Below, one piece after another: positions 12,272-61,500 of a stretch of DNA of 64,000 bases (its first letter is position 1; each line of letters starts with the position of its first letter). Source of the stretch: Beta vulgaris subsp. vulgaris (taxonomy: Eukaryota > Streptophyta > Magnoliopsida > Caryophyllales > Amaranthaceae). Location of the stretch: NCBI RefSeq assembly GCF_026745355.1, contig NC_079205.1:52952283-53016282 (forward strand), given 5' to 3'. Under the pieces are notes generated by a model, which saw nothing but the letters and a program-made list of their open reading frames with translations, was not told the origin of the DNA and ran no database searches. A program made the position numbers and the translations under genes.

Positions 12272-12283
12272 GCTCTGATACCA
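12272..12283 (-). other. tRNA-iMet primer binding site of the gypsy element
   Basis: Three bases inside the 5' LTR end, the minus strand reads TGGTATCAGAGC, the standard plant initiator-methionine tRNA primer site. This fixes the element's orientation. Confidence 0.93.
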
Positions 12284-14277: not shown

Positions 14278-14438
14278 TACTTAGCGAAGAAGAAACGATT
14301 TTTGAGAGAAAAAAATATGAACTCACGCACAAAGAGAGAGGAGAGAGAAAATGTCGAGTGAGGGGAGAGAATTTCAGAATCACGTGCAAGGGAGGAGAGA
14401 GAAAATAGAGTGTAGGGCAAAATATTTGGGTTTTAGGA

Positions 14439-14448
14439 TATTTAAATA
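14439..14448 (-). promoter_or_regulatory. TATA-like box of the gypsy LTR
   Basis: CCTATTTAAATATCC on the minus strand, about 360 bp inside the 5' LTR, is the best TATA-like sequence in the proximal part of the repeat, and the other LTR keeps it. The transcription start was not located. Confidence 0.3.
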
Positions 14449-15029
14449 GGCTAATCCTATTGGGCTTAGGAAAAGAGACTTCAAAAATTAAAACTTTGAT
14501 GACTAACAAGATGGGCTTATTAGGACTTTAGTCATCAAATTATCCTTTTCCTTTTTATTACTTTTGGGCTTTCGATTCCATTAAGTTTTCTTTTCAAATA
14601 TGCTTTTAATAATAAACTCTTATTGAAAACACGCTTAATTAAAATATTACAAATTTTATTAAGCTAAGAAAAATATTTTTAGTTGACTTTTAAAACAGTC
14701 AACCCTTTTTAAAAGTCAAATCATTTTCCAAACTCATTTGGATTTAAATATAACTACATAAATACCTTAATATATTTATGAAAATCCTTTAAAAAATGTG
14801 GGGGATTACAGTTCAGTTCACCTTATTTTTGCTTATTTCAGATCTAGTCAGATCAAAGCAGAAAAAATAAAGTTCAGATCAAACCAGAAAAAATAAGTTT
14901 AGAACAAATCAGATAAGTTCAGATCAGATCATGCTTCTATTTAAAAACTCATTATTACTATTAATACTATTATTTACTTAGACATTTGTTCAAAAGGATT
15001 ATTGTTGTTGTTGTTGTTGTTGTCAACTT

Positions 15030-33018: not shown

Positions 33019-33337
33019 TATAAGGAAAGAAACTATCTGTAATAACATGATTAAGGAAAATCATATATTAAAAAAATAATTATTATCTGATTATGTATGT
33101 TAGTATCATAATCATTTCATAGTTGCCAAAGAATGAAAATACATATTATTATTTCGAACTTAACAATTACACAAAATTAATAAACTCAAGTTATTATGCG
33201 ATTTAAATTTAACATTATATTATCAATTCAAATAAAATTTAACATTATATTATTCTAAATTAGTATAAAATCGTTTTAAACTAGAAACTCATTTAAATTA
33301 GTATCAATTCGTTTACAACACGTAAATGATCCATTAG

Positions 33338-33505
33338 TGTTGTAAATAAACAGAAGAGGAAGAGAGAATCGTGTTGTATCTTATTCCATATAGTCCAGGG
33401 TATATATATACAATACAATAGTTAGGGTTTTACTTGGAGAACAAAACCCTAGAATATCCTGGATATATTAATGGGGGTATAATGGGCATCCATATTTTCA
33501 TAACA
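33338..33505 (-). repeat. 3' LTR of the copia element
   Basis: 168-bp LTR. Differences from its partner include CCAGGG/CATGGG and a few single bases. The minus-strand purine tract AAGGGGGAG at 33506-33514 adjoins it. Confidence 0.93.
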
Positions 33506-33580
33506 CTCCCCCTTGGATGTCCATTATACAAAATAAAAGTTCTCTCTTAAAATAAAATATTTCCTAATGCGTGTAAGATG

Positions 33581-36500
33581 CTACCTCATTAAAAACCTTA
33601 CCAGGAAAACCCAGTGGGAAAAACCATGGTTAAGGGAAAAAGAGTGCAGCGCGCATCTACCCCCCTCATGATTACATAACTTGAGATCTTTGAGACGACG
33701 TAATCCAATACGGTAAACTAATTTCTTGAAAGTAGCGGTGGGAAGTGCCTTGGTGAATAGGTCTGCCAAATTTCCACTTGAACGAATCTGTAGAACCTGT
33801 ACATCACCATTCTTCTGCAGTTCATGGGTGAAGAAAAAGTTTGGTAAAATGTGTTTTGTTCTATCACCCTTGATGTATCCTTCCTTGAGCTGTGCAATGC
33901 ATGTTGCATTATCCTCATACATCACTGTTGGAGCTTCTTTCCCTATAGATATGCCATAATCTTCTCGTATATGTTGAATTACGGACCTTAACCATACACA
34001 TTCATGACTAGCTTCGTGGATAGCTAAAATCTCTGCATGGTTAGAAGAAGTGGCTGCAATGGTTTGCTTCATAGAACGCCAAGAAATGGCAGTACCACCA
34101 CTTATGAACACATATCCTGTTTGTGATCGATCATTATGGGGATCAGACAAATACCCTGCATCTGCAAAACAAATCAAGTCTTCTTTGGGTTGGTTAGAAA
34201 AAAATAAACCCATATATTTCGTTCCTTGGAGGTAACGAAGTACATGTTTTATTCCATTCCAATGCCTTCGAGTTGGACATGAGCTAAACCTTGCTAGCAA
34301 GTTCACAGGAAATGATATGTCAGGTCTCGTATGGCTAGCAAGATACATCAATGCCCCTATTGCACTTAAGTATGGTACTTCAGGACCAAGGATTTCTTCA
34401 TTGATTTTTCGATGACGGAATGGGTCTTTATCAACATCAAGTGATCTTACAACCATTGGGCTACTCAACGGGTGTGCTTGATCCAAATAAAACCTTTTTA
34501 ACACCTTTTCCGTATATGTTGTTTGATGTACAAGGATTCCATTCTTTAGATGCTCAATTTGTATCCCCAAGCAAAATTTTGTCATTCCAAGATCTTTCAT
34601 CTCAAATTCTTTCTTCAAATATTCCACTGTGTGTAAAATCTCTTCAGGGGTCCCAATAATATTTAAATCATCAACATACACTACAATTATTACAAATCCT
34701 GCCCCAAATTTCTTTATAAAAATGCATGGACTGATAGGGTCATTCTTATAGCCTTCACTTAATAAGTACTCACTGAGGCGATTATACCACATACGCCCTG
34801 ATTGCTTCAATCCATAAAGAGATTTGTTTAATTTTATGCAGTAATGTTCTCGAGAATTAGAATTTGCTGCTTCTGGCAGTTTAAATCCTTCTAGGACTTT
34901 CATATAAATATCATTGTCCAGTGGCCCATATAAGTAGGCTGTGACTACATCCATTAAACGTAAATCAAGTCCTTCTTTTATTGTCAGACTAATAAGAAAT
35001 CTGAAAGTAGTTGCGTCCACCATAGGGGAGTATGTTTCTTCATAATCAATTCCAGGTCTTTGTGAGAATCCTTGTGCAACTAAACGTGCTTTGTATCTCA
35101 CAATTTCACCATCTTCATTCTTCTTTCGCACAAAGACCCATTTATGTCCCACTGGTTTTACACCTTTAGGTGTACGGACTACTGGTCCAAATACTTCTCT
35201 CTTTGCAAGAGATTTTAATTCTGCCTCAATTGCTTCCTTCCATTTTGGCCAATCATCGCTTTGTGCACACTCTTCAATAGACTTTGGTTCATGATCCTCA
35301 TTTTCTTCCATAACATCAACTGCTAATGCAAAAATTTCATCGACGTCGATTTGATTTCGGTTCCATTTTATTCCAGACATGACATAATCAGTTGATTTGC
35401 CATGTCTAAAGTCTCTCCTGGACATCCTTCAAAATTCTTTGTTTCCTCGGTCTGGCCATTATCAATTCCTGCTCGGCTGCTCCTTTTCTTTTCCGAGGAT
35501 TCTTATCTTTGGAACCAATAGGTCTACCACGCTTCAAGCGTGCTGTAGACTCACTAGCAATTTGATGTTTTCCTTCTGGGACATCAATTCTGATTGGAGC
35601 AGTTGGTATATGCGACTTGGTTACTCTATTTGGGTCAGTAAATGCGTCTGGCAATCGATTTGCTAATCTTTGTAAATGAATTATCTTTTGAACTTCTAAT
35701 TCACATTGTTTATTGCGAGGATCAAGATGAGATAATGATAATTCATTCCAACTGATTTCCTTCTCCAGTTGTTTATTCTCTCCCCCTAATGTTGGAAAAA
35801 CTGACTCATTAAAGTGACAGTCTGCAAATCGAGCCTTAAATAGATTCCCTGTGGATGGCTCTAGATATTGAATTATTGATGGAGATTCATATCCAACATA
35901 TATTCCTAACCTCCTTTGAGGACCCATCTTAGAATGATGTGGTGGAGCAATTGGAACATATACAGCACACCCAAAAACTTTTAGATGGGAAATATTTGGT
36001 TCCTGACCAAAAACCAATTGTGATGGGGAGAACTTTTGATTACTCGTTGGCCTGATGCGAATTAATGCTGCTGCATGTAATATAGCATGTCCCCGCAGAG
36101 ATTGGGAGTTTGGAGTTCATAAGTAGTGGTCTAGCAATCAACTGGAGACGCTTTATTAATGATTCAGCTAGACCATTTTGTGTGTGAACATGTGCTACAG
36201 GATGTTCAACACTTATCCCAATAGACATGCAATAATCATCAAAGGCTTGAGAAGTGAATTCACCAGCATTATCAAGGCGAATTGCCTTCATAGGGAAATC
36301 TGATAAATGTGCTCGTAATCTAATCAATTGAGCAAGTAGTCTCGCAAACGCCAGGTTGTGAGTTGATAACAAGGATACATGTGACCATCTACTCGATGCG
36401 TCAATTAAAACCATAAAATATCTAAATGTTCCACATGGTGGGTGAATTGGCCCACAAATATCTCCCTGTATACGTTCCAAAAAATTGATAGATTCAAAAT

Positions 36501-37069
36501 CTATTTTGGTTGGTGAAGGTCGTATTATCAACTTGCCTTGTGAGCAAGCACAAGAGAAATCATTAGGAAGAATCTTTTTGGTTCTTCAATGAATGTCCAC
36601 ATGAATTTTCAATTATTTTTCGCATCATTATTGAACCAGGGTGGCCCAACCGGTCATGCCAAATAGTGAAATTATCTGCAAACTTCCTGTTTACTATGGC
36701 ATATGTTTCAATTGTATTGATTTTAGTATAGTACAGACCAGTGGAAAATGTAGGTAATTTCTCCAAAATATTCTTAGTGCCTTGGGTAATACTCGTGATA
36801 TGAAGGTATTCAACATTTCACTTATTGTCTCAATATGATATATTATGGCGAATATCTTTAAAGCTCAATAAATTTCTTTGAGATTTGGGAGAATATAGTG
36901 CATCAATGATTTCAAATTTCGTTCCCATAGGTAATAATATATTTGCTCTTCCGGAGCCTTCAATTATCTTTGTACTACGATATATACTCACACTAGTTTC
37001 TTTCATTGTCAAAAAGAGAAATACTTGCTTTTTAGTATGGTTAGAGTAGTTGCACTGTCTGCTAGGCAT
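33581..37069 (-). pseudogene. Copia pol remnant: integrase, RT, RNase H
   Basis: 37069-36830 is the region before the integrase (protease C-terminal part and linker). 36766-36563 carries the integrase zinc histidines (WHDRLGHPGS). 36531-36040 is the catalytic core with GDICGP, RLDNAGEF and NGLAE supplying Asp, Asp and Glu. 36017-35406 is the integrase C-terminal part (VFGCAVYVPIAPPHHSKMGP, YVGYESPSIIQY). 35425-33581 (614 codons) is RT with KWVFVRKKNEDGEIVRYKAR, the catalytic YVDD at residues 254-257, and RNase H with ADAGYLSDPHNDRSQTGY. The segments lie in different frames; one shift is at 35406-35425, others near 36030, 36550 and 36800. Confidence 0.9.
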
Positions 37070-37302
37070 TAATCTTCACCATTCATTGCTAACTGAACTT
37101 GAGGGGTATTCATATTCTTCAAATAAATGAAATAACAATAATATATAAGAATAACTAAATAACCAAAATTTAACAATGTCATATAAAATCATAGTATTGA
37201 CAAATAAAATCTAAAATAAAATAACATAATCCAAACAAAAATCCATAGTAATACTTAATAAATGAAAACGAAGTTTTATTCTTTAAATGACCATAATCGA
37301 AT

Positions 37303-38182
37303 CTAAGGATTGTTATTCCCTTCAGGGGTGGTGAAGAAATTAGCAACTTCCAGGTGAGTTGTATTGCCACAATCAAAGTCACCTTCGCCATCTTCGTACA
37401 CAAGATTTGTTTCTACTTTCTTTCCCTTTTGCTTCAATGATTGTTGATATAGGTCAACCAAGTGTTTTGGTGTACGACACGTACGAGACCAATGACCTTT
37501 TCCTCCACATCTGTAACATACATTGGTCACGTTCTCATTTTTATCTTTCTCTTGTTTGTTATCATCTTTATTGCCCCTTCTGGTGGGAATATGAATTCTT
37601 GAAAGAACCACCTCGGCCTTGACCTCGATATCCGTATCCACGTCCAGACCTCGCACCATATCCACGTCCACGTCCTTGACCACTATTGTTGGCCTGATAT
37701 TTTTCTTTCCCATTATGGGATGTCGCATTCGCTTCAGGGAATGGAGTGGAACCAGTTGGACGTGATTCATGATTTTTCATCAGTAGCTCATTATTTTGCT
37801 CAGCCACAAGGAGACAAGATATAAGTTCAGAATATTTACATTCCTTTTCACGGTATTGTGTCTGCAGGACAACATTATTCGCATGAAAGGTAGTGTATGT
37901 TTTCTCTAGCATTTCTGCATCAGTGATTTTCTTTCCACATAATTTCAACTGTGAAGTAATTCTGAACATAGCTTAGTTATATTCACTTATAGACTTAAAG
38001 TCTTGTAGTCTTAAATGTAACCAGTCATAACGAGCTTTGAGTAGTATTACAGTTTTCTGGTGGTCATACCTTTCCTTTAGATTACTCCAAAGGACTTGTG
38101 GATCTTTCACAGTCAAGTACTCAGTCTTAAGACCCTCATGGAGGTGGTGGCGTGCAAATTCAAGTTTTGTAAGGTTCGACAT
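37303..38182 (-). pseudogene. Copia gag remnant with zinc knuckle
   Basis: The frame starts MSNLTKLEFARHHLHEG at 38182 and is open to a single TAA (SEYN*, 37973-37975) that stands where relatives read SEYNS. It continues MFRITSQLKLCGKK to a Gly/Arg-rich patch (GRGRGYGARSGRGYGYRGQG), then shifts frame near 37600. The zinc knuckle C-x2-C-x4-H-x4-C (CYRCGGKGHWSRTC) is read at 37540-37480 in the new frame. Two lesions therefore separate it from a working Gag. Confidence 0.85.
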
Positions 38183-39181
38183 AGTTTACTATATACAAGT
38201 GAATATTGCGAAATTAGGACTTTATATCAAATTGTAATGCAATATTGAAGTTTAATAGCATAAAGTTGTAATTTAATAACAAACAAGCAAAATAAAAAGG
38301 TTTGCTCATAAAAATAAAGTGACAGGAAGAATTAATATAATCACAAACATTATAATATATTGAGCATCATATGTTCTTCTATTTCATCAACACTCATTCA
38401 GATCACACATATACTCATTCAGATCACACATATATCCAGATCACACAAATATTAATATTCCACACAGTTTTTTTTTTTTTCAAAAATGCTACGTTCATAG
38501 AATGTAGCACATAATTATCAAACATTACACAGAATATTATAACATTAACACAATCATACACATTAATACATTTAATGAAGCATAACATCACTATCGCTAG
38601 TACCAACATAAGTACAACGTATTGACTATTCTGCATCATGAACATAGAAACATTTTCATGTATAACTTGCTCAGTACATATACAAAATCGTTCTTTCTTA
38701 GTTATTTACCTTTTTTTTTTCTTCTGCATACAATACTATCTATACATCTGCTTTGCACTACACATATATCAAATTCACATCAAAAAGGGAAGTTTATAAG
38801 TAGGCTCAGTTCGTGCGAAATAAAATAGCAGAAATAAATTAGCAGATTTAACCAGTAGGGTTCATAAATTAGCAGAAATAATAATTAAAAAAATAAAATA
38901 AAAAGGATAAAATACCTCAACCAGTATTGCAGTTCAGTAGGTTCTCCGTTCTCAGACCTGAGTTCCGGGTTCCGGCAAAGTGGCGACAAAAACAAAACGC
39001 TCCAGCAAGGCGGCAATTGTGGCGAATAAAAAACCACGTACGGCACCGGCGAGATGAACGCGAGACGAGGAGCTGACGTAATAAGCGACCGGAAACTGGT
39101 GTTGGGATTGTCGTGTGATAATATGATTTCCCATCAATTGGCTTCGACTACTCAGTTGGCTAGGGTTTCGTGCTGATAACG

Positions 39182-39352
39182 TGTTGTAAATAAACAGAAG
39201 AGGAAGAGAGAATCGTGTTGTATCTTATTCCATATAGTCATGGGTATATATATACAACACAATAGTTAGGTTTTACTTGGAGAACAAAACCCTATAATAT
39301 CCCGAATATATTAACGGGGGTATAATGGGCATCCATATTATATTTCATAACA
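39182..39352 (-). repeat. 5' LTR of the copia element
   Basis: 171-bp LTR. Directly inside it the minus strand reads GTTATCAGCACGAAACCC, the place of the primer binding site; I did not assign the tRNA. Confidence 0.92.
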
Positions 39353-40490: not shown

Positions 40491-40778
40491 TACTATGTTC
40501 CCAATTAGCAAAGCCAAACTCCCTGCTTGACTGCTTGTCTAGTGCTTGTCTAGTAAGGAAGACACACAATGACACAAACAACGGAATATGGAGTTGAAAG
40601 TAAGAGAAATGGGCAAACACATCCGAGAATAACGAAAATTTGATGGTGAGTAATTGGTATAATGGTATTATAGTAATAGTCTAGTATTTGGCTCTCATTT
40701 AATTTTATTCTGGATTACTAGTTAGATTACTGGATTATAAAATTAGAACCCAGAAACAGAGCAGGGTCGAAGAAAACG

Positions 40779-42605
40779 ATGAAGCTCAAGTTTACTCCTG
40801 AAGCTTTTGCTGCCTTCTTTCATGGTGGTACTACTCTTATTACTCCTTTTCCTTCTTTTCATTTTCATTTTCATTTTCATTCACGCCATTATTACTCCGT
40901 TGCAACTGATGCTGTTATTCAAGATCGTCAGTTGTTTCTCAAATCAGTTAGAGAACACTGCAAATTAGGGTTTTCCAATCTCAATTTCCCCCTTTCTCTC
41001 TTTCATCAATTGATCTCTTTGCGTCCCCTCCCTTCTATTATTGTTTTTACTCAACTCTTCACTGCCATTTCTAAATTGAAACGCCTTCAACCTCACTCTA
41101 CCCTTATCTCTCTACTCAGAAACCTTGAATTGTCAGGTATTCGACCCGATATGCACTCTATTGGTATTCTCGCCAATTGTTACTGTCATTTGGGCCGTGT
41201 CGATTTCGGTCTCTCTCTTATGGGTAAATGCCTTAAACTTGGATATTCCCCCAACTGTTATACCTTTAACACCTTAATTAATGGCTTTATCCACTCTAAT
41301 AAGCTCCCTCAAGCTCTTCAATTGCTCCATCAAATTGTTAAGCTAGGTTTCCAACCCAACATTGTTACCTATGGTGCTATTTTTAAAGGCCTTTGTCAGA
41401 TTGGTGACAATGCTGCTGCCCTTCACTTGCTTAAGAAGATGCAATGTGGTATTTGTAAGCCTAATCTTGTCATCTATAGCACCATTATTGATAGTCTTTG
41501 TAAGGATAGGCTGTTGAAAGAAGCCCGCGATCTATTCACCGTCATGAAAAGTGAGGGCATCATACCTGACGTTGTCACTTACAACTCCTTGATTAGAGGT
41601 CTCTACAACTCTGGCTCCAAGGTCGAGGCTAAAGATATGCTAGCTCAGATGTTGGAGTGTAACATAGCACCAAATGTTATCACCTTCAACATGCTTATGG
41701 ACATGTTTTGCAAAGATGGAAATGTTGATGAAGCACAAGCTATTCTAGACTACATGATTGAGAGAGGTGAGATTCCAAATGTCATAACTTACAATGCTTT
41801 ACTCGATGGTTATTGTTTGCGTGGTCAGATGGAGGATGCTGAAAAGCTACTTGATCTTATGGCCCAAAATGGTTGTGAGCCTGATATTGTAAGTTTTAGT
41901 ACTATAATTAATGGATATTGCAAAGATAGAAACATCGACAAGGCCCTCAATGTGTTTCAAGAAATACTTGAAAAAGGGATTACACCTAATGTTGTTACCT
42001 ATACCACTCTTATTGATGGACTATGCAAAGTCAATAGACTCCCACTTGCGCGTGAATTGTTCAAGGATATGCAAGGTCATGGAAGTACTCCGAATAGTGT
42101 CACATATGCTTCGTTGCTTGATAGCTTATGCAAAAATGCGCTACTTGATGAGGCAGTGGCGTTACTTGAAGAAATGGAGGACAAACGTGTTAAGCCTACT
42201 ATTGTCATATACAATATCCTAATTGCCTGTTTGTGTGAGGCTGGGAAAGTTGAAGATGCAGCAAAATTCTTCTTGGATCTTGTATTGAAGGCCCTGCAAC
42301 CTGATCTAATAACATATAATATAATGATTAAAGGTTTATGCAAGAAAGGGCTCATGGATGAGGCTATCCAATTGTTGAGGAAAATGGAGGAAGACAGTTG
42401 CTCACCCGATGATCTTACTTATAATACAATTATCAGAGGATATATTCTCAACAATGACTTGTCAAATGCATCGTACTATTGTGATCTTATGGTTAGCAAG
42501 GGATTCAAAGGTGATGCTGACACTTTCTCGTTATTGGTTGGCCTATTGTCGTCTGGTAACTTAAGTGAGTCTAATAAGGATCTTCTTAGCAAGTTCTTGA
42601 AATGA
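40779..42605 (+). CDS. P-class PPR protein, restorer-of-fertility-like, paralogue 1
   Basis: An intact intronless gene of 608 residues. The N-terminal ~45 residues lack acidic residues after Glu8 and are rich in Phe, His, Ser and Thr, ending RHYYSVATDA, a likely mitochondrial targeting peptide. It includes four Phe-His pairs coded by a TTTTCA tandem run. Residues 86-124 and 125-159 are two irregular repeats, and 160-579 are twelve exact 35-residue PPR repeats (for example PDVVTYNSLIRGLYNSGS), then a short tail. There is no E or DYW extension. Such proteins bind mitochondrial RNA base by base through residues 5 and 35 of each repeat and direct its processing. Pairs for repeats 3-14 are NN, GN, SD, NN, NN, ND, SN, TN, AT, ND, ND, ND. 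The target is unknown. Confidence 0.93.
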   Translation: MKLKFTPEAFAAFFHGGTTLITPFPSFHFHFHFHSRHYYSVATDAVIQDRQLFLKSVREHCKLGFSNLNFPLSLFHQLISLRPLPSIIVFTQLFTAISKLKRLQPHSTLISLLRNLELSGIRPDMHSIGILANCYCHLGRVDFGLSLMGKCLKLGYSPNCYTFNTLINGFIHSNKLPQALQLLHQIVKLGFQPNIVTYGAIFKGLCQIGDNAAALHLLKKMQCGICKPNLVIYSTIIDSLCKDRLLKEARDLFTVMKSEGIIPDVVTYNSLIRGLYNSGSKVEAKDMLAQMLECNIAPNVITFNMLMDMFCKDGNVDEAQAILDYMIERGEIPNVITYNALLDGYCLRGQMEDAEKLLDLMAQNGCEPDIVSFSTIINGYCKDRNIDKALNVFQEILEKGITPNVVTYTTLIDGLCKVNRLPLARELFKDMQGHGSTPNSVTYASLLDSLCKNALLDEAVALLEEMEDKRVKPTIVIYNILIACLCEAGKVEDAAKFFLDLVLKALQPDLITYNIMIKGLCKKGLMDEAIQLLRKMEEDSCSPDDLTYNTIIRGYILNNDLSNASYYCDLMVSKGFKGDADTFSLLVGLLSSGNLSESNKDLLSKFLK

Positions 42606-45506
42606 CTTGAGTAAGATAATTCCAAATTGCAACTATTGCTGACACTTTTTCATACTGGTTGGCCTATTGCTGTCGACTTCAAGTATTCAAGTAAGCGTTC
42701 TATTTGAGGAGTTAGACATCAAGATCAGTCTGATTTTATGTGTCTGTATCTAGCTTTATGTATGTGATTCCTAGTTGTATTACCTTTGATCTGATTTCAG
42801 TTAGCTGGCATCTTGTGGAAAATGAGACAATATTTCTGGAAATCTGACCTTCTAGTCTTCTATGTTGATCTTTTTGTCAGATTAGCTCCCTTCGCAGTTC
42901 AAAACTTTTCTTTCAACCTCCCCCTTCCTTTCTATGCGTGTGCACTTTCAGATTTCTTTTCAAAACATGGCGACTAAAATTTGTTGTTAACTGAGTTGGA
43001 AAACACAACTTGTTGGATGTAGCATATAATGGCGATTTCGTAGCTGAACCTGACGACACTATTCCATCACAAGACCCTCTTATTGTTTTTGAACTGTTGT
43101 TTGAGCAGTATGGATCATTTCTGAATAGTCCGATATCTACTGCTTCCTCTGTCCATAAAAAGTTTTCTATACTTGTTTCCGGATGTGACAAAAGATGTTT
43201 CTTGTTATTCGAAATGGAAATTTTACCCCATCCAAGCTATGTCTTGTGAACCCTCCAACTTAATCCCATATTCTCACACTCTGTCCCTATACTTCTTAAG
43301 ATGTGGGCCTTCCATAAACTCTCTCTTTCAGTCAATCTTTTATTTCTCTACACCATCTACCAAGAAAAGAAAAGAATGTTTTCTTATTAGTTCTTGATAT
43401 ACAGTTAGGTTATGCATATATGTGCTCAATATCATAGAAACTCTACCAATATTTCTTAGGTGGGAGATGATGGGTAAAATACAGCTAATTTTAGGAACAT
43501 ACCTAAGGAATTTGAATTTAGTTCAATAAAAGTGTGGATGGGTAAACAAGGATTAGCTTTTAGCTAGATATAGAATGTATTGTCAAATATTCTATATGAT
43601 TCTTGGAACTTTTTATATTCATTTGAATGCTACCTGATTGAAGGAATCGACCGATCAATGCATATACAGAGATGTGAAAAGCTAACTTGACAATGGTCCA
43701 ACTTACATAATGGGATATGAATCTACTTTTCTGTACTTTTATTAGGAATTTATCAATGCATATACACAGAACTGAGAGCATTAGGAACTTACATAATGAC
43801 CAATCAATCCATGTTGATTTACTTTCTCTAGTTTATTCATTTATTTATAATGGGTCTTGATATTGTTCTTTTTTTATTGAAAGAGTGCTGCAAATTGAAA
43901 ATCTGTTGTTGGCTTGATTGAGCTATTTCAATTGTTCCAATGAGGAAAAATTCCCTTGACTCATCTATTCTCGGATTTTGCTTCTAGTTCCTTTTGTTTC
44001 TCACTTGATGTTTGTTCTATTGCTTTTTGTCCAATTCATCTTTGGTCTGGTTGAATAGAAATACAGACACTCTCCCACGCCGAGAGAGCTTTCCTTCAAA
44101 GATTATGTTTTGCCCTTTTTTTTCTGTCTCTTGACTGTGCTGCTCTGCAGTCAGATAAAGCGAATTTTTTACCTACTTTTATGCATTTATCTGTCCTGAT
44201 TTATCACACCTTTTCTATATGGGTCTTCTCTATTATTCGAGTGATTAGTAGCTATATTGATTGTTTCAGTGTTTTGTAAACTTTCAAGTTTTTAAAAATT
44301 TGTTCCAGGGAATAGTTGGTGTTTGTTGATTTGCTATCTCATGGTATGGTGTAAAGCAATTTCTATTTCTATATCTGCAGCTTTACTGATATTTGTGATG
44401 TACCCAACACTTCAATTTGTAGCTTACTGATATCTGCATTGCTGATTTGCTGTTATGTCTAAGAATCAGAGGGAAAGCAGAGCGATTCGATGAATGTAAG
44501 GAAGATAGAGAAAGAGGAGTTGGAGGAAAAATATGAAGGTCGAGAGAACATGGTGGGAGTGTAAGAGTAGCCTGTTGATATTGATGAAAGATTGTTGAAG
44601 AGAAGAAGAGATGAGAGTTTGATGAAAGAGCAACGACAAAAGTTGCCATGTTTTTTGGGTTTCAGCCAAGTCTCTTGTGCTCGAATAGTCCCTAGCATTT
44701 GCCAAAGGTTTTCATTGTTTGTCGTTGTGTTCCTGAGTTCGAAATTTACATCGAGTGACAATTGAATGGAGGTAACACCGTGCCATGAGTTTGCCACTGT
44801 CACAGTCATAAATTGTTTGAATCTAGTATGCTTTGATACCGGTAATCTATTGCTCGTTTTCACCGTGCGTGGTTAGGATTTTTATTGATAACTTGAACTT
44901 GGGTTGTCTGTTATTTTGTAACTACTTCGCTAGATTATTGACTAATTTTGTTTTCAATATGAAGGGGTATTCTAGGGGCTTAAGATGAAATGGTTATGTA
45001 ACAGCTATGCAATAGGCCAATAGTCATGGTGGATGAGGGCCACTTTCATGTTTCTCTTTTGTCTTTTGTATAGGAATAGGACACATATAAGAGGTCTTAT
45101 ATCGCATGGGTGATCCTTTTTGTTAATTAATCTTATGTATATGTCCTATAAATGTATTATTAGTTGCTTATATAGTTCATGTTTCCAACTCTATACCTAT
45201 AGTTGTAAATGAGAAAATTGAATTCTAATCTACAATCGAAACAATGGTAAAAAATGTATTTCTAAAATCTGCAAAAGAAAAATTAAGTTACAAACAAGGA
45301 AGGGTGAAATAGAAAAAGAACATTAGATTTTTTTTCATTTAGTTCTTTTAAATAAATGATGGTGCCACAAACAAGTAGTGAGAGTCAATTACAATTCGAA
45401 AATATATATGGGAGGGAGAGAAAGTAAGTGAGAACGAGGGAAAGAGGGTGAGAATGACGTTGGAGTTAGAAATCAAGGGAAATTGAAGGAGGGGAGGGGC
45501 GAAAAG
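42606..45506. other. Gene-free stretch after the first PPR gene
   Basis: The first ~80 bp match the sequence after the second PPR gene (ATTCCAAATTGCAACTATT and TTGGCCTATTG), so the duplication included the 3' flank. The remainder is AT-rich with short frames. The longest, on the minus strand at 44459-44863, is rich in Ser, Phe and Leu, and none looks like a known protein. Confidence 0.5.
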
Positions 45507-46036
45507 TAGGGTTGATTAACATATCAGGTCGTGTCGTGTTCGGGTTCGGGTTAATAATAAACAAGTTGAACATGTTCTAACCTAAATCGAATCTGTTTAA
45601 AAAGCGGGTTGAAAAACTCAGCCTTGAGCCGACCTGTTTATTAAACGGGTTACTCATATAACCTGTTTAATCCATTTACATATTTATTACTATTAATTTT
45701 TTTTTAAAATTTATTAGTTTTCAACAATAAATTCACATAAAAGTATGCATGATTAGATTTTATTTTCAGTATATGTGTTCCACAATTAGTATTTTTAAAA
45801 TTTTCACCAACTTCAACATAACTTTTTAGAAAATTTATATTTTTAATGAGTTAAAACATGTCAAAGTAGGTTAATTTCGAGTTGAAAATGTCAATCTTAA
45901 CCTAACCCATTTAATTAAATGGATAAGTCATGTCAACCCATTTACTTAAATGGGTCAAAAATCTCAACCCAAACTCGCTTATTTTAGGTCAGGTTCGAAT
46001 TCGGTAAACGGGTTGGGTCAGTTTTTCACAGCCCTA
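45507..46036. mobile_element. 530-bp hAT-like non-autonomous element
   Basis: The ends TAGGGTTG and, complemented, TAGGGCTG are flanked by GCGAAAAG (45499-45506) and GTGAAAAG (46037-46044), an 8-bp duplication with one mismatch. The inside is rich in GGGTTCGGGTT and AACCCATTTA words. No transposase is present. Confidence 0.72.
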
Positions 46037-46131
46037 GTGAAAAGGATAACAAGAGAGAGAAATAAAATAAATAGTAGCATTGTTCGCCTTGTTTCTTAAT
46101 GATAATTAGATGTTTGGTTTTAAAAAAAAAA

Positions 46132-46165
46132 CTAGTGAGTGTCCCGGACGATGCCCTAGGTTGTT
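46132..46165 (-). mobile_element. Helitron-type 3' terminus (copy 1)
   Basis: Read on the minus strand, a CCTAGGGC/GTCCGGGA imperfect hairpin is followed by CACTCACTAG and then T, the form of a Helitron 3' end. The end matches that of the small Helitron at 50048. The 5' end of this copy was not found. Confidence 0.55.
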
Positions 46166-46344
46166 ACTTTTCGTATCTTTTTGTAAAGTGTGAAAAAATT
46201 GACGTAATGGCATGATAAGTAATTGCATGATTTCTGAAAAATAAACCCTTAAAATATTGGTGATGAAAGCAATCGCTTAATTCTGTCTACAAGAAATTGG
46301 ATTAAGAGTTTGGGTGTGTTCTCCTCAACTTAAAAAATTAAGTT

Positions 46345-46530
46345 TCAGGTCAATAAGTTCAAATAAGTTCAGATAAGTTGCAATAAGATCCAATCAGGGC
46401 AATAAGTTCCAATCAAGTCTAATAAGGTCCAATAAGTTCCAATCAGGTGTAATAAGTTCCAATCAGGTGCAATAAGTTTCAATCAGGTCTAATAAGGTCC
46501 AATAAGTTCTAATCAGATCTAATAAGGTCC
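46345..46530. repeat. Tandem repeat AATAAGTTCCAATCAGGT
   Basis: About ten irregular units of 18-25 bp alternate AATAAGTTCCAATCAGG and TAATAAGGTCC. The start, GGGTGTGTTCTCC near 46312, is like the element ends at 4150 and 31155. The same array recurs at 49300-49490. Confidence 0.75.
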
Positions 46531-46663
46531 AAATAGTCAATGTTCAATAAATTTTTGTATTATTATCCATTATTTTATTATTCATAATTTCATATCACTA
46601 TTAGCTGATTATGTTATTATTAGAATTTTAATGAAAGTACCACAATGATTATATAGTATTATA

Positions 46664-48773
46664 CTTCCGTCGTGTTTTTATTCTTGCTACATAGAGAAAT
46701 GGCACAGGTTTTAATAAAGGTAGAGAGAGAAATATTGGGACCACTTTTCTCCCCATTAATTCCTCTTTTAATTGCAAAGGGAGGGAAAAAATTGGGAGGG
46801 ACCAACTGTACCACTTTTAATTGAAATTCCCCAAAATTTTGAATTTTCCCACCAAATTTTAAAAAACACAGCAGCACACATTTTGGGTCCTTGTAAAAGC
46901 TCACTGTATGTACGAAAAATTACAACTTCTTCAAGAAAAATCATTCACAACAAGGAAAGACAATTACACTCTCTAAATCACTCAAGCACACACTTCACAC
47001 TCACTACACACACTGCACTTAGGCATATTTTTTAAAAAAAAAAATTCAGATGGAAGATGATGATTTCATGGCATATCTAATGGCAAATGGTGTTGGAGAT
47101 GAGTATGACATGGCTATGGAAGAGCTGCTAGCCCTTGAAGAACTGCATTCAAGTAACAACTCAAATTCATGTGATGAAGCTAACATATCAGTCGATGAAC
47201 TTCTATCATTGGAGGAGGCCATTAACAGATTCAGTGATGATGATGATGATGATGATGAACCATGGTATGTCTTTGATACTGATTCTAAAAATGAATCCAA
47301 AATGAAATTGATGAAGAAACTTTAGAGCAAACTAGTGTTGACACAACAACATCAAACAAAAACCCAATGATTCCTAACAATATAAGGGCACAAATTGCAA
47401 GTGAAATGTTTGAGGCTGCCATAAATTGCAAACTCCCAAGGGGTTTCAACATGTTTTTAGTCGAAAAATATGTAGTGCACAGGTCAACAATAACAAGAAT
47501 ATGGAGACAAGCCAAAAATCAGAAACTCATTGGTGAAGAGGTGAATGTGTCACCCAAAAAATACAAGTGTGGAAGGAAGTCTTTAATTACTGATGACATG
47601 CTTCTAGTTGTGCCTCTAAAACAGAGGACAACATTAAGGTCTTTTGCTGCTGCTTTTGAGGTGAGTCCTTCAACAGTTTATAGGCTGGTAAAAAAAGGGT
47701 ATCCTAAGATCCCACACAAGTTTTATAAAACCAAAGCTCACAGCTGAGAACAAAATTAAAAGGCTTAAGTTTGTGATGGGCAATATCATACCCAGGACAG
47801 TGAATGAGGGACCCAGATTTGACCTTCTACAAAACATGATTCACATTGACGAGAAGTGGTTTTTTATGAGTAGGATCACTCAAAGGTTCTATCTTCTCTC
47901 AGATGAAGAAGATCCTTATAGGGCATGTCAGTTAAAAAGTCACATGACTAAGGTCATGTTCATGGGTGCCATTGGTAAACCATGGTTTGGAGAAAATAGG
48001 GAACTCATTTTTGATGGAAAAATTGGCATTTATCCATTTGTAGACAAATTAAAGTTCCAGCACAAAAATGGAGTGCAAACAGAAACAGGGGCACTATAGA
48101 GACCAAAGCCAAGCAACACATCACCAAACAAGTCATCAGAGAAATGATTATCAACAAGTTGTTACCATCAATAAAAGAAAAGGTCAGCAAATAGGTGCAA
48201 AACAATATGGATACAAAAAGATAATGCCAGACCACATATATTACTAGATGATGCAAAGTTTCTGGAAGCAGCAAGAAAAGATGGTTTTGATATGCATCTT
48301 GTATGTCAACCAGCACAATCCCCTGACCTAAATCTTTTGGATTTGGGATTTTTCAAAGCAATACAGTTAATTCAACACCAACAATTCCCAAACACACTAG
48401 ATGAGCTCATTGAAAGTATAGAGGAAGCTTATAATGTTTATGATCCTAGAATCATAAATTACACATGGTTGCAATCTCAAGCTTGTTATGCTGGAAATCC
48501 TAAAGGTTAAGGGTGGAAACAACTATAAGAATCCTCACATTGGCAAGAAAAAATTGGACAGGTTGCGGCAATTACCAACTGATGTTCATGTTCCACAACA
48601 ATTGGTAACTGACACAGTCAAGTTACTAGATGAAGGAATTGTATGTGGGCCACCAAATCCAGATGAAGAGCTCATGGCAGAGTAACTAAGAAGGGCGACA
48701 ATGCAAGGAGACAAAACAGAAGAAGAGAAGAGTAAATGAAACAACAAATGGTGATAGAGCATATTGGAGGGAG
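46664..48773 (+). mobile_element. Mariner-like element (plant MLE), 2.1 kb
   Basis: The left end CTTCCGTCGTGTTTTTATTC and the complement of the right end, CTCCCTCCAATATGCTC, start alike, and TA lies on both sides (46662-46663 and 48774-48775). It contains one plus-strand transposase gene with all three catalytic Asp still readable. The left end resembles the MITEs of this window, so MLEs of this kind may have mobilised them. The right border is less certain because its inner part diverges. Confidence 0.75.
47050..48685 (+). pseudogene. Mariner-like transposase, DD39D, frame-broken
   Basis: 47050-47325 gives an acidic N-terminal part (MEDDDFMAYLMANG, seven Asp in a row). 47367-47747 gives the helix-turn-helix region (VHRSTITRIWRQAKNQK and VSPSTVYRLVKKG). 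47773-48099 carries the first catalytic Asp (MIHIDEKWFF). 48222-48350 carries the second (KDNARPH) and third (PDLNLLDLGFF), with exactly 39 residues between them, the spacing of plant mariners. Another frame continues to 48685. Frame breaks or stops at about 47325, 47745, 48100 and 48510 mean no full enzyme. Confidence 0.88.
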
Positions 48774-48829
48774 TAGGTGAAAGTTTTTGTAAAGATTGAA
48801 AGTTATTCTAAAGCAATAAGTTTTGATAA

Positions 48830-49616
48830 GTTGAAAATGTCAACCTTAACCTAACCCATTTAATTACATGGGTAAGTCATGTCAACCCATTTACTTAAAT
48901 GGGTCAAAAATCTCAACCAAAACTCGCTTATTTCAGGTCAGGTTCGAATTCGGTAAACGGGACAGCACTAGTGAAGAGGATAACTAGAGAGAGAAATAAA
49001 ATAAATAGTAGAATTTTGTGAGAAGAATTGTTCGCCTTGTTTCTTAATGATAATTAGATGTTTGGTTTTTTTTTATAAAAAAACTAGTGAGTGTCCCGGA
49101 CGATGCCCCAAGTTGTTACTTTTCGTAACTTTTTGTAAAGTGTGAACAAATTAACGTAATGACATGATAAGTAATTGCATGATTTTTGAAAAATAAACCC
49201 TTAAAATATTGGTGATGAAAACAATCGCTTAATTCTTTCTACAAGAAATTGAATTAAGAGTTTGGGTGTTTTCTCCTCAGCTTAAAAAATTAAGTTTCAG
49301 GTCCAATAAGTTCAGATAAGTTGCAAAAAGGTCCAATCAGGGCAATAAGTTCCAATCAGGTCTAATAAAGTCCAATAAGTTCCAATCAGGTGTAATAAGT
49401 TTCAATCAGGTGCAATAAGTTCCAATCAGGTCTAATAAGGTCCAATAAGTTTCAATCAGGTCTAATAAGGTCCAATAAGGTCCAAATAGTCAATGTTCAA
49501 TAAACATTTGTATTATTATCCATTATTTTATTATTCATAGTTTCATATCAAGATTAGCTGATTATTTTATTATTAGAATTTTAGTGAAAGTACCACAATG
49601 ATTATATAGTATTATA
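48830..49616 (+). repeat. 0.78-kb direct duplication, copy 2
   Basis: Partner of 45881-46663. The hAT part is truncated on the left and has lost about 15 bases of its end (GGGACAGCACTAGTGAAG). The copy contains the Helitron-type end (CTAG at 49084-49087) and the tandem array 49300-49490. Confidence 0.88.
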
Positions 49617-50047
49617 CTTGTATTAGTGTAAGGAGTTAATGCATTATACTACCTTCAAGTAAATGAACGTGGAGTGAGAATTTTTCATATGTGGCAATTT
49701 TAACTTGTTAGCAATAGATGTTAATCAATTTTAACTTTTGTTCTTAAATTGGATTTTGAATTCTTTTATCATCCCCAAGAATCAACTTAATTTCTATACC
49801 AAGATATTGGATGGAAATTAAGGGGATCCTTCATTAGGAGTTTTTAATAAGATTGAAAATGGTAGGTGGAAATTTATAAAAAAAAATCATTAAGGTGGGA
49901 GTTTCTAAAAACGTGAAAAGTCTAGGTGGTAAGCTGCGATTTATCCTTGTTTGAATATGATTCTCTTTTAAAAAGTTGTTAATTCTATATATGTTTGTAT
50001 GAAATTCCTTTTATGGATATTTAGCTCAAACATTTATTAATATCAAA
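49617..50047. other. AT-rich spacer, nothing recognised
   Basis: No coding signs, inverted repeats or target duplications were seen in this stretch. Confidence 0.5.
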
Positions 50048-53890: not shown

Positions 53891-54483
53891 GTTTTTGTGG
53901 GTTTCAATAGTTTGGTGGACATTAAAGGACTTTGGGATGAAGCTGATTGTTGGGACTTGGGAGAATTGACATTGAAGGAATTTCAGATTCTCTAATTTCT
54001 TCTGTGAATATTTTGGGCTCAGCCCGTCCGACCAAACACATTGGGTCAGACGGTCTGATCCAATAGTTTCACATACATTAATATGAATAAGAAAAAAAGG
54101 CAAAGATGAAAATGAGTCGTTTAGATTTTGTATGAAAATATTATCTTGTAATCCTATTCTTTGTCGTTATATATTTTGTTATTTTACAACCTTATTTTTT
54201 CTCAAATTACTAAGTAATTATTAATGTAATGGTGTCCCCCCTCAAAAAAAAATTAATGTAATGGTTTCATTTTTGGAAATTTTATTTTAAAGGTAGTACT
54301 TGTTTTTTGACATAAAATGTAGTACTTAGACTTTGTTCTTTTGGACTCAAGTGAACTAAAGAGAATTTTTCTGAATTGAACTAAATTGAGGTGAATAAAC
54401 CTCAATTGAACTGTTCTAAATCAACCTAAACTAAAATAATTGAATTGTGAAAGAAAAAAGTGAAACCCAGAAACAGAGCAGGG

Positions 54484-56310
54484 ATGAAGATGACGATGAA
54501 GCTCAAGTTTACTCCTAAAACTTTTGCTGCCTTCTTTCATGGTGGTACTACTCTTATTACTCCTTTTACTTCTTTTCATTCACGCAATTATTACTCCATT
54601 GCAACTGATGCTGTTATTCAAGATCGTCAGTTGTTTCTCCAATCAGTTAGAGAACACTGCAAATTAGGGTTTTCAAATCTCAATTTCCCCCTTTCTCTCT
54701 TCCATCAAATGCTCTCTTTGCGCCCTATTCCTTCTATCATCGTTTTCACTCAACTCTTCACTGCCATTTCCAAATTGAAACACCTTCAACCTCACTCCAC
54801 CATTATCTCTCTCATCAGAGACCTTGAATTCTCTGGTGTTCGACCCAATTGGTATTCACTGGGTATTCTCACCAATTGTTACTGCCATTTGGGCCGTGTT
54901 GATTTCGGCTTCTCTCTTCTCGCCAAAAGACTTAAGCTTGGTTACCCCTTTGATGGTGATTGTGTTATCTTTAACACCTTAACCAATGGCTTTATCCACT
55001 GTGATAAGCTTCCTCAAGCTCTTCAATTGCTCGATCAAATTGTTAAGCTAGGTTTCCAACCTGATATTGTTACCTATGGTGCTATTTTCAAAGGCCTTTG
55101 TCAGATTGGTGACAATGCCGCAGCCCTTCACTTGCTTAGGAAAATGCAATCGGGAACTTGTGAGCCTGATCTTGTCATATATAGTACCATCATTGATAGT
55201 CTCTGTAAGGATAGGCTGTTGAAAGAGGCCCTCGACCTGTTCACTGCCATGAAAAGTGAGGGCATTATACCTAATGTTGTCACTTATACCTCCTTGATTA
55301 GAGGTCTCTACAACTCCGGCTCCAAGGTCGAGGCTAAAGATATGCTAGCTCAGATGTTGGAGTGTAACATAGCACCAAGTGTTATCACCTTCAGCATGCT
55401 TGTTGACATGTTTTGCAAAGATGGGAATGTTGATGAAGCGCAAGCTATCCTAGACTACATGATTGAGAGAGGTGAGATTCCAGATGTTATAACTTACAGT
55501 GCTTTACTGGATGGTTATTGTTTGCGTGGTCAGATGGAGGATGCAGAAAAATTACTTGATTTGATGACCAAGAATGGTTGTGAGCCTAATATCGTAAGTT
55601 TCAACACTATCATTAATGGATACTGCAAGGCAAGAACCATTGACAAGGCCCTACACTTGTTCCAAGAAATACTTCAGAATGGGGTGACACTTAATGTTGT
55701 TACCTATACCACTCTTATTGATGGACTATGCAAAGTCAATAGACTTACACTTGCACGCCAGATGTTCAAGGATATGCAAGGGCATGGAATTACTCCTAAT
55801 GTTGTCACATATGGTTCATTGCTTGATAGCTTATGCAAAAACGCGCTACTTGACGAGGCAGTGGCGTTACTTGAAGAAATGGAGGATAATCGTGTTAAGC
55901 CTAATGTTGTCATCTATAATATCCTAATGGATAGTTTGTGTGAGGCTGGGCAACTTGAAGATGCAGCAAATTTTTTATCTGATCTTGCGTTCAAGGGCCT
56001 GCAACCTGATTCTAAAACATATAATATAATGATTAAAGGTTTATGCAAGAAAGGGCTCATGGATGAGGCTATCCAATTGTTGAGGAAAATGGAGGAAGAC
56101 AGTTGCTCACCAGATGATGGTACTTATAATACGATTATCAGAGGATATATTCTCAATAATGACTCATCAAATGCATTGTACTATCGTGATCTTATGGTTA
56201 GCAAGGGATTCAAAGGTGATGCTGACACTTTCTCGTTACTGGTTGGCCTATTGTCGTCTGGAAACTTAAATGATTCATCTAAGGATCTTCTTAGGGAGTT
56301 ATTGAAATGA
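54484..56310 (+). CDS. P-class PPR protein, restorer-of-fertility-like, paralogue 2
   Basis: An intact intronless gene of 608 residues. I chose the ATG at 54484 (MKMTMKLKFTPKTF); the ATG at 54496 matches the start of paralogue 1, and there is no ATG further upstream in frame before the homologous leader. It has the same layout: a likely mitochondrial targeting peptide (without the Phe-His run), two irregular repeats, then twelve regular PPR repeats. It is highly similar to the gene at 40779. Base-specifying pairs (residues 5 and 35) for repeats 3-14 are ND, GD, SN, TS, SD, SN, NN, TN, GN, ND, ND, ND, so repeats 3-9 and 11 differ from paralogue 1 while 10 and 12-14 agree. Repeat 9 ends Leu-Asn in place of Pro-Asn. 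The RNA target is unknown. Confidence 0.93.
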   Translation: MKMTMKLKFTPKTFAAFFHGGTTLITPFTSFHSRNYYSIATDAVIQDRQLFLQSVREHCKLGFSNLNFPLSLFHQMLSLRPIPSIIVFTQLFTAISKLKHLQPHSTIISLIRDLEFSGVRPNWYSLGILTNCYCHLGRVDFGFSLLAKRLKLGYPFDGDCVIFNTLTNGFIHCDKLPQALQLLDQIVKLGFQPDIVTYGAIFKGLCQIGDNAAALHLLRKMQSGTCEPDLVIYSTIIDSLCKDRLLKEALDLFTAMKSEGIIPNVVTYTSLIRGLYNSGSKVEAKDMLAQMLECNIAPSVITFSMLVDMFCKDGNVDEAQAILDYMIERGEIPDVITYSALLDGYCLRGQMEDAEKLLDLMTKNGCEPNIVSFNTIINGYCKARTIDKALHLFQEILQNGVTLNVVTYTTLIDGLCKVNRLTLARQMFKDMQGHGITPNVVTYGSLLDSLCKNALLDEAVALLEEMEDNRVKPNVVIYNILMDSLCEAGQLEDAANFLSDLAFKGLQPDSKTYNIMIKGLCKKGLMDEAIQLLRKMEEDSCSPDDGTYNTIIRGYILNNDSSNALYYRDLMVSKGFKGDADTFSLLVGLLSSGNLNDSSKDLLRELLK

Positions 56311-56477
56311 TGTGGGTAATATGATTCCAAATTGCAACTATTACTTACACTTTTTCGTACTGGTCGGCCTATTGTCGTCTGTTACTCTGCTTCTTAATCA
56401 AAGGGGCTCTTGCTTAAATTTATCTGTCTTTTTGGAGTTAAAGCTGTCAGATTTTAATCTTAAAGCACCTCTTCCTG

Positions 56478-58571: not shown

Positions 58572-61500
58572 CTAATGCATAGCAGGGGCCACTACATCTC
58601 TACCTACATAATGGATATTACAAAACAAAAATTTACTACGCAAAGCCTGTATATCATGTGCGATAGATGCAACTTCGAAAGGGTATTGACGTTTGTGAAG
58701 GGCTTGTACGAGAACTCTGTTATCTGAGTAAATGCGAACTCGGTTAACACCATGAGCGTATGCTTCACGTAACCCTCGGAGAACTGCATGAGCTTCCGTT
58801 TGTAGGGAAGACAAAGAGATTACTGCATCATTTCCTTCAAAAATTTTGGAATTGTCCAAGAGGGCTGACCATCCAATTCCCGCTCGTGGATGCTTTTGCT
58901 TATGCCTCTTCCAAGCTCCATCAACCTTAACTATACATTCGTCAGTAGAAGAACTAAGCTGAGAGTCGTGACATCTATCCAAACTTGAGTTATCGGTGTG
59001 AGAGAGAGGGTTGTTTCTATCCCGGAATCTGTTACTCTCTCTAATCTCCTTGAGAAGAGCTATTCTTAAGTTCATAATTGCGATCGGATTCACCTCTTCA
59101 CTCCTGAAGACGACTTATTCCTATGAATCCATATAGCCCATAGTGCTGCTATGAACTCTGATACCCGTGTTGACTTGACGCCATCCTCCTTCCAGAATAG
59201 CTTGAGAAAGTTCTTAATCCATTCTTCAACAGATATGACTGTCATGGGGCATATTCTTATTCCCAAAAGCGAGCTTGCCCATACACGCCTTGATATATTA
59301 CAATCTCTGAATAAGTGACTCTCATTCTCTTTATATTGCTTACATAGAAAGCACATCTCTTGTATCGAAATGTTTCTTTTTAGGAGATTGGAGCTAGTAG
59401 CCAGAGCCTTATTCAGTAGTCTCCATGTGAAGAACTTCCATTTTGGTATGAGATCGGAGGCCCAAAGTTTGTTCCAGAATTGTCTGTTTTCCTGCGTGAT
59501 ATTCAATTCTCCTTTGTCGGTCAGATAGAATGCATAAATATCCTTGACCTTGGGTACACCCGATTTTGATTCGCTCCAAACAAATCTGTCATGCAGGTCT
59601 TCTGCCGGTATATGAGTGGCTAATATCTTCATGGCAGTGTCAGAGTTGAAACATTTCCAGATTAGCGAAGAATTCCATGTTTTTTGTTGTGTGTTCAGAA
59701 GATCCTTCACCTGTCGAATTCCCATGTGAGCTAGATTAATCCCAGATTTCACTATGACTGGGCCTTCCCTAATCCATTTATCACCTTCGATGTCTGTATT
59801 TGATCCATCACCAATTTGACTTGTGAAACCCGCGCGACAATCCTGAACCGCCTTACAGAGTCCTCTCAATCCCCAAGATACTCTGCCCATTTTTTTGTTC
59901 CGTAAAACAATATCTACTGGAGATGCTTTATATTTGGCTAAGAGGACCTGTGAGATCAGAGACTGACGTGAATTATGGATTCTGATTGCTTGTTTCGTTA
60001 GCAGTGCTTTGTTGAAAAGGTGGACATTCCTTATCCCTAACCCTCCTCCTCCTTTCGGCAGTTCGATGATTTTCCTGCTCTTCCAGAATATTGGCGATGG
60101 AGAGTTGGGATTGGCCCAGAGGAATCTAGCAAAAATCGCATTTATCTTATCGACCGTGGTCTTAGGAATGAGGAAAACACTTAGAATGTTCAGACTTAGC
60201 ATGTAGAGGATGCTATTAATGTATATGACCCTTCCCGCATGTGACAAAGTGAGATGATGCCAGCTGGAAACCTTCCTCTCTACTTTCTCTACCAATGGTT
60301 GAAATTTTCTAGAACTTCTACCATCCACTTCAATATTACATCCTAAGTATTTCCCTAAAGACTCTTCAGAGGGGTGCCGACAATACTTCTCATGAATCTC
60401 TTAAACCTGAGGGGTGTGTTTGGGCTAAACATGATATGGGACTTGTTGTAATTGATTACTTCTCCCGACAATCTGCTAAACCGAGCAAGAATATCTTTCA
60501 CACCTGCACAAGCTTCGGGGGTGGCTTTGAAGAAAATTAAAGAATCGTCTGCGAAAAAAAGGTGAGACAAAATCGGGCTAGATCGAGAAAGCTTGATTCC
60601 TTGAAATGAACCATTGCTAACTCCATCTAGCAACAATCTAGACAAAATATCCATTATCAAAATAAACAGGTAAGAGGAAAGAGGGTCACCCTGCCGTAAT
60701 CCGCACATGGTTTGAATCTTGTAGTAGGCTCACCATTTACAAGGATGGAATAGGAGACAGTGGTAACACATTGCATAATCCATTGTCGACAAAATGGCGG
60801 GAAACCCATTTGCGTCAATAACCAAAATAGGAAGTCCCAATCCACTTTGTCATATGCTTTAAACATGTCAATCTTGAGAGCGGCTAAGAAATGCGTACCC
60901 TTTTTGCGTTGTTTGATTAGGTTGACAACTTCATGTGCAATGAGGCAGTTGTCTGAAATCAACCTTCCTGGAACGAACGCAATCTGGTACGGGGTCAGTA
61001 TGCTCTTTAATATTGGTTTTAGCCGGTTGGCGATGATCTTCGAGATGATTTTGTAGATTACGTTGCACAGGCTAATGGGTCTGAATTGACACGCTTGCTC
61101 CGGACGCTCAACCTTAGGAATTAAACAGATATTTGTCTGATTCCATTCTTGAAGAATAAAGCCAGTGGTAAAAAAATGGGATACCGCTCTCCATATGTCC
61201 TCCCGACAATTGACCAGTGCTTCTGGTAAAAAAATGCTGGAATGCCATCCGGCCCCGGGGCTTTCAGGCTTCCCATTTGGAACACTGCATTTCTGACTTC
61301 TTCTCTTGTAACTGGCTTGATCAGATCTTCCCTTTGCATGATGTCATTTGTGGAACCAGATGCCTAATCCCGTCCAACTCTTCCCAGTATTCCTGAGTGT
61401 GTTGTGATCCTTGAAAAATATTTGCAAAGTAACCAAGAAATTCCCCCTGGATGTCCTGCTTTGATGAAACCCATTTTCCTGCTGAATTTTTGATTACCAA

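Follow-up and report, generated by a model that had tools for sequence, protein, structure and literature searches.

A tandem pair of RFL-type PPR genes whose differences in repeats 6-8 fall mainly on residues 5 and 35

We have analysed a 64-kb window of plant nuclear DNA (36% GC), the whole stretch considered here, which contains several retroelement ORFs and two intact PPR genes (Table 1). These genes, referred to as copies A and B, lie in tandem on the same strand about 12 kb apart. For copy B we used the ATG at 54496, which aligns with the start of copy A; a further upstream ATG is found at 54484, and the mechanical ORF begins with a GTG at 54460. PPR models were foremost in the Pfam matches of both copies, and MRP-S27, ATP13, and TPR_19 were among the weaker helical-repeat models. 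In the blastn comparison, the homology between the copies comprised the coding region with about 40 bp on its 5' side and about 65 bp on its 3' side, at 87.9% identity; in the codon-wise alignment 92 of 602 residues differed, as did 198 of 1806 bases. At E 1e-3, blastn found no third PPR piece in the window. Both ORFs are open and the two copies have similar branch lengths in the tree described below, which rules out that either is an evident pseudogene. Judged by eye, the N-terminus looks like a presequence. In copy A, this part contains 4.3 copies of the hexamer TTTTCA in a row, at the place of six residues (FHFHFH) that are missing from copy B. Directly 3' of both stop codons, the final part of the coding region recurs in degenerate form, suggesting a partial 3' duplication older than the duplication that gave rise to A and B.

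Table 1. Positions of the PPR genes, their repeat blocks, and other features in the window
Feature	Position	Strand	Remark
PPR gene copy A	40779..42605	+	intronless intact ORF, 608 aa; Pfam PPR_2 2.8e-161
PPR gene copy B	54496..56310	+	intronless intact ORF, 604 aa; Pfam PPR_2 2.6e-143
Copy A homology to B	40739..42669	+	blastn
Copy B homology to A	54456..56374	+	blastn
A repeats 3-14	41256..42515	+	regular 35-residue register
B repeats 3-14	54961..56220	+	regular 35-residue register
A repeats 6-8	41571..41885	+	stretch of the finding; 6/6 code, 3/99 other residues differ from B
B repeats 6-8	55276..55590	+	counterpart of the A block
Hexamer run in copy A	40856-40881
Degenerate repeat 3' of copy A	42637-42714
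Degenerate repeat 3' of copy B	56344-56384
Candidate retroelement with long LTRs	4163-14812		RVT_1 ORF on minus strand
Candidate Copia-type element	33337-39352		RVT_2 and SH3_retrovirus ORFs on minus strand
Possible non-autonomous LTR element	45880-49619		between the two PPR genes
Putative LINE fragment	59090-60328	-	ORF with zf-RVT domain

Among the retroelement-like stretches, the first in the window has direct repeats of 2.5 kb, 95% identical and starting TGTAACACC, on either side of its ORF, with GTTCA beside both outer ends, and it resembles a long-LTR retroelement with a target duplication of 5 bp. The second, whose ORFs are flanked by direct repeats of about 170 bp (93%), looks like a Copia-type element; a shared 5-mer was looked for at its outer flanks and not found. 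Between the PPR genes, direct repeats of about 790 bp (89%) lie about 2.2 kb apart with no 200-aa ORF, which makes this a possible non-autonomous LTR element, and here too a search of the flanks for a shared 5-mer found none. The zf-RVT domain downstream of copy B is perhaps part of a LINE fragment.

By hand count, copy A has 14 P-type repeats. Repeats 1 and 2 are irregular, and repeat 2 has a two-residue gap between A and B beside its position 35. In the dPPR-RNA structures, residues 5 and 35 of each repeat contact the base (PMC4837458), and we refer to these as code residues and to all other positions as the framework. The code pairs (5,35) of repeats 3-14 are NN GN SD NN NN ND SN TN AT ND ND ND in copy A and ND GD SN TS SD SN NN TN GN ND ND ND in copy B; repeats 1 and 2 have TD and GN in A, and TN and GD in B.

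The original prediction stated that repeats 6-8 of the two proteins differ at 9 of 105 residues and that all six code residues are among the nine, and our recount agrees. Repeat 6 indeed differs solely at positions 5 and 35 (N..N in A and T..S in B), repeat 7 differs at positions 5, 8, and 35, and repeat 8 at positions 5, 28, 29, and 35. These counts correspond to a Fisher p of 5.2e-8, and a within-repeat permutation that asked for any three-repeat run with all six code residues changed gave p 1.9e-4. The other repeats are also as described before, with one code change in each of repeats 3, 4, 5, and 9, two in repeat 11, and none in repeats 10 and 12-14. Changes at position 35 of repeat 1 (D/N) and repeat 2 (N/D) had been overlooked, and these bring the code total to 14 of 28.

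Over repeats 1-14, the 14 changes among 28 code residues are set against 63 among 464 other residues (OR 6.4, p 1.1e-5); the numbering of repeat 1 was moved by one residue for the rate counts given below, which leaves both difference counts unaffected. When repeats 6-8 are left out, 8 of 22 code and 60 of 365 other residues differ (OR 2.9, p 0.024). On the one hand, the statement that the copies differ exactly at the code residues is true of repeats 6-8. On the other hand, it does not extend to the entire array, where 63 of 77 differences lie elsewhere, and repeat 12 has the reverse pattern, with 12 framework differences and zero code changes. Position 35 differs in 9 of the 14 repeats, the highest of all positions, and position 5 in 5 of 14, equal to position 29.

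The framework of repeats 6-8, with 3 differences in 99 residues, is quiet in comparison with the remainder of repeats 3-14, where 44 of 297 framework residues differ (p 0.001). If the uniform average rates of this pair in repeats 3-14 are assumed, a three-repeat run with six code changes is expected in about 12% of cases, and such a run with three or fewer other changes in 0.03%. Therefore, six changes out of six are unremarkable for such a pair, and it is their coincidence with a quiet framework that is remarkable. The same block contains 11 synonymous codon differences between A and B, indicating that it is not a recently copied stretch, and these differences rule out a recent conversion tract of 105 residues that was later mutated only at code sites.

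With regard to the family of these proteins, A and B were placed in the RFL clade of a tree of 236 proteins. This clade contained 68 proteins with a support of 1.0 and was defined as the common ancestor of nine RFL-type rows chosen by us in a FastTree tree rooted at P0066. The restorer-like identity originally proposed for the pair is thus borne out. In a tree of 39 rows, A and B were sisters with 100/100 support and branch lengths of 0.088 and 0.10, and their group includes sequences of Chenopodium and Spinacia. An RFL-type group of 28 rows, which includes A, B, and relatives with At1g12700-, At1g62670-, and At1g62930-like names, was split with 100/100 support from 11 rows with At1g06710, At3g61520, At5g28460, At5g39710, and At5g57250 names; the split is not entirely clean, however, as the long-branched, RFL-type-named P0048 (At1g62914-like) and Selaginella P0028 (At1g62670) joined the 11. 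The At1g62xxx names are here taken to denote RFL proteins. Among the best 120 matches of each protein search, the identity to A or B was at most 66%, and the nearest relatives among the matched proteins were from Chenopodium (Caryophyllales). P0006 (Spinacia) and P0056 (Amaranthus), both named after At1g12700, belong to the Caryophyllales group that contains A and B. The identity of A and B to P0006 is about 53-54%. In Arabidopsis, RPF1 (At1g12700) and RPF8 are described as RFL proteins needed in the 5' processing of mitochondrial mRNA (PMC8270843). Within the Amaranthaceae, the male region of Amaranthus palmeri is described as containing a PPR (PMC9940365).

The nearest solved sequences to A and B, at about 1e-120, are the designer protein dPPR-U10 and its relatives (PDB 5i9f, 5i9g, 5i9h, 5i9d), entries that presumably all belong to the dPPR study. 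The dPPR chains have the same 35-residue register as A and B, with residues 5 and 35 as the base readers (PMC4837458), but they are synthetic, with uniform repeats and known targets. A and B have the strict-register P-type array, the tree grouping, the clustered copies, and the fast residues 5 and 35 of RFL proteins, and the barley and rice RFL sets (PMC7380019, PMC5075784) likewise consist of P-class, near-consensus 35-residue repeats, occur in clustered copies, and diverge in excess at the base-reading residues. The rice paper quotes 15-20 repeats, and the 14 of A and B are just below this range (PMC5075784). It also reports high diversity at residues 5 and 35, citing Fujii et al. 2011, and the barley paper, which cites the same work for these two residues, reports diversifying selection with residue 5 as a major target (PMC7380019). 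Unlike the barley RFLs, in which residue 5 is a major target according to that account, A and B vary most at position 35.

We compared this pair with other PPR pairs that were chosen greedily from 1333 candidate pairs of 65-95% identity, each protein being used once and pairs with fewer than 10 code sites or zero other differences being dropped. The ratio of code to other differences was above 1 in all 15 non-overlapping RFL pairs including A/B (1.46-4.43, median 2.46), and that of A/B, 3.73, was the third of the 15; automatic phasing counts this pair as 12/25 versus 55/427, compared with 14/28 versus 63/464 by hand. The 51 pairs outside the RFL clade had a median ratio of 0.84 (Mann-Whitney p 1e-7 against the RFL pairs). 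Pooled, 133 of 304 code and 885 of 5060 other residues differed in the 14 other RFL pairs, against 268 of 1756 and 4656 of 29188 in the outside pairs. As the ratio exceeds 1 in every RFL pair and has a median of 0.84 outside, the code-residue bias is the norm of the RFL family, and it is already in print for grasses (PMC7380019, PMC5075784). Judged by the listed names, both members belong to one species in nine of the 14 other RFL pairs and to different species in five; since the latter also have ratios of 1.46-3.49, the code bias is not solely tied to duplication. The 51 outside pairs are unsorted by species and many are between species, so that duplication status is partly confounded in this comparison. 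Six outside pairs exceeded 1.5, and the top three (2.7-3.1; P0151/P0203, P0205/P0206, and P0055/P0207), all of them Rhodiola kirilowii copies, may be RFLs missed by the clade cut. A hand-picked, overlapping set gave ratios of 1.33-3.77 for 17 RFL-type pairs, five of which fell short of p 0.05, and of 0.21-1.53 for 18 non-RFL-type pairs.

Measured against a random protein pair, the pattern of A/B goes far beyond chance, but within its family it is ordinary. What stands out in A/B is only the local concentration in repeats 6-8, which is the cleanest of the 66 pairs. The best three-repeat run had all six code residues changed in three pairs, and the other changes in these runs numbered 3 in A/B, 12 in P0034/P0123, and 19 in P0151/P0203.

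The rates were obtained from our own Nei-Gojobori counts for this one pair. In the repeats of A and B, dN was 0.230 at code positions and 0.074 at other positions, with a dS of 0.310; the last value indicates that the copies are not young. Code dN was thus about three times that of the other positions (one-sided Fisher p 6e-4), in agreement with the earlier expectation that dN/dS is higher at code residues than elsewhere. Purifying constraint acts on the framework, whose dN/dS is about 0.25, and the turnover of residues 5 and 35 is about three times as fast. Code dN was not above the silent rate (Fisher p 0.36), and code omega was 0.74, with a CI of 0.38-1.41 that takes only the sampling error of dN into account. 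Within repeats 6-8, code dN was 0.536 against a dS of 0.209 (one-sided Fisher p 0.08), corresponding to a code omega of about 2.6 (CI 0.74-15) from six changes that were picked after the fact. The rates of A/B do not demonstrate positive selection at the code residues, and because code omega is below 1, neutral turnover at these sites is compatible with the rate.

Such turnover would be expected if constraint had been relaxed, that is, if one or both copies no longer needed a defined target and the code residues drifted while the fold was kept. A code dN near the silent rate and the change of half of the code sites fit this explanation. However, drift should exit the code alphabet, which we set as N, S, T, G, or A at position 5 and N, D, S, or T at position 35, and all 14 changed code sites carry a code letter in both copies. 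For neutral one-step changes from the codons of A at kappa 2, 6.1 of 14 would be expected within a slightly broader letter set. The probability of 14 out of 14 was 6e-6 (kappa 2) or 8e-5 (kappa 4) from the A codons and 2.7e-5 (kappa 2) or 6e-4 (kappa 4) from the B codons, making unconstrained drift unlikely. This test is post hoc, uses letter sets chosen by us (including G and A at position 5 and T at position 35), and assumes one-step neutral change, so what it rejects is unconstrained drift only; selection that keeps some RNA-contacting residue without favouring a switch would pass it as well. The constrained framework also speaks against relaxation, as do the non-RFL pairs, which have the same fold without a code excess. 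We therefore consider relaxed constraint unlikely, and we read the changes as functional because of the residue alphabet and the family norm rather than because of the rates.

Based on the code pairs, the RNA sites of both proteins can be predicted. The rules given in PMC3420917 are TD for G, T/SN for A, ND for U, and NN/NS for C, and those in PMC4837458 are NN for U or C and SD for G; in the latter, small residues at position 5 admit purines with little specificity. The predicted sites are 5'-G R Y R G Y Y U A A N U U U-3' for A and 5'-A R U R A N G A Y A R U U U-3' for B. Here, R at repeats 2 and 4 and at repeat 11 of B is a weak guess based on the glycine at position 5, and N marks AT in repeat 11 of A and TS in repeat 6 of B, two pairs for which we found no rule in the papers cited. 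At repeats 2, 4, 6, and 11, where position 5 holds G or A or the pair is TS in one or both copies, the code is weak or has no assigned base. The base changes proposed earlier for repeats 5 and 7-9, from G, Y, U, A to A, G, A, Y, match the rules as stated in these two papers, and the irregular repeat 1 adds a predicted change from G to A. Ten repeats (1, 3, 5, 7-10, and 12-14) have an interpretable code in both copies. Five of them conflict (1 G/A, 5 G/A, 7 Y/G, 8 U/A, and 9 A/Y) and five agree or are compatible, so a single RNA should not suit both A and B well. Repeats 12-14 are ND in both copies, which reads as UUU. Among five relatives aligned over the C-terminal repeats, ND occurs in two at repeat 12, three at repeat 13, and four at repeat 14, and this retention suggests that the U-rich 3' end of the predicted site may predate the duplication.

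A different history would be that recombination or gene conversion with other RFL paralogues imported blocks of sequence, so that many code differences represent few events. Chimeric RFL genes have been described in rice (PMC5075784), and in A/B the synonymous differences are spread unevenly over the repeats (binned variance p 0.06; p 0.005 for the longest identical run, of 96 nt), dS reaches 0.6-0.9 in repeats 2, 5, and 9, and 4 of the 14 changed code codons (repeats 2, 3, 5, and 9) have a second base difference. Each of the six code codons in repeats 6-8 differs by one base, however, and these six changes are scattered among the 11 synonymous and 3 other amino-acid differences with no dense blocks; moreover, the window encodes no other PPR donor at E 1e-3. 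Patchwork exchange may explain the high dS in repeats 2, 5, and 9 and fits repeats 6-8 less well. As an account of the code differences, we regard it as very unlikely.

The explanation that we favour, and hold to be probably correct, is that A and B are tandem paralogues of the RFL clade whose targets diverged after duplication by exchange of code letters on a constrained framework. A and B probably bind different mitochondrial RNAs, the difference in target being a prediction from the code. The original prediction went further, to selection of the pair for binding different mitochondrial RNAs. Of this reading, the RFL-type identity, the excess at code sites, and the predicted base switch are supported. 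The claim as a whole is plausible and agrees with most of the observations, but these two sequences do not demonstrate positive selection, code dN being below dS.

In such a mechanism, the proteins of A and B would each enter mitochondria, where their repeats would align along one single-stranded RNA site, N-to-C on 5'-to-3'. The bound protein would direct the processing or silencing of its transcript, like the Arabidopsis RPF proteins and known restorers. After duplication, A and B would have diverged in their RNA target while the 3' UUU of the site stayed common. We can go on to imagine repeats 6-8 as the recoding core, with A and B processing two different mitochondrial transcripts whose sites have the 3' UUU in common and at least one of which might be a sterility-linked ORF, but in this specific form the proposal is speculative and we hold it to be rather doubtful.

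As to which copy changed, polarisation by six relatives (from Chenopodium, Gypsophila, Heliosperma, Spinacia, and Silene) showed variable code letters in most repeats. These outgroups are too distant and too variable at the code sites for a firm call. By eye, there are weak indications that B could be derived at repeats 6 (position 35) and 8 (positions 5 and 35), and A at repeats 3 (position 35) and 7 (position 35).

Present knowledge of RFL evolution is unchanged by A and B, which extend the expected pattern to a pair on the Chenopodium side of the family; how consistent this pattern is within the sample can be seen from the 65 other pairs compared. The value of the pair lies in repeats 6-8, where the scaffold is nearly the same and the codes are different. 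This is a clean natural swap experiment, and with A and B the PPR code could usefully be tested in a native RFL setting.

A further case was seen among the relatives. P0201 of Chenopodium quinoa (1125 aa) is one gene model with two RFL arrays that are 92% identical over 341 residues, and it perhaps represents two tandem RFL genes annotated as one. When this model was examined for a share in the A/B duplication, its halves paired together, apart from A and B.
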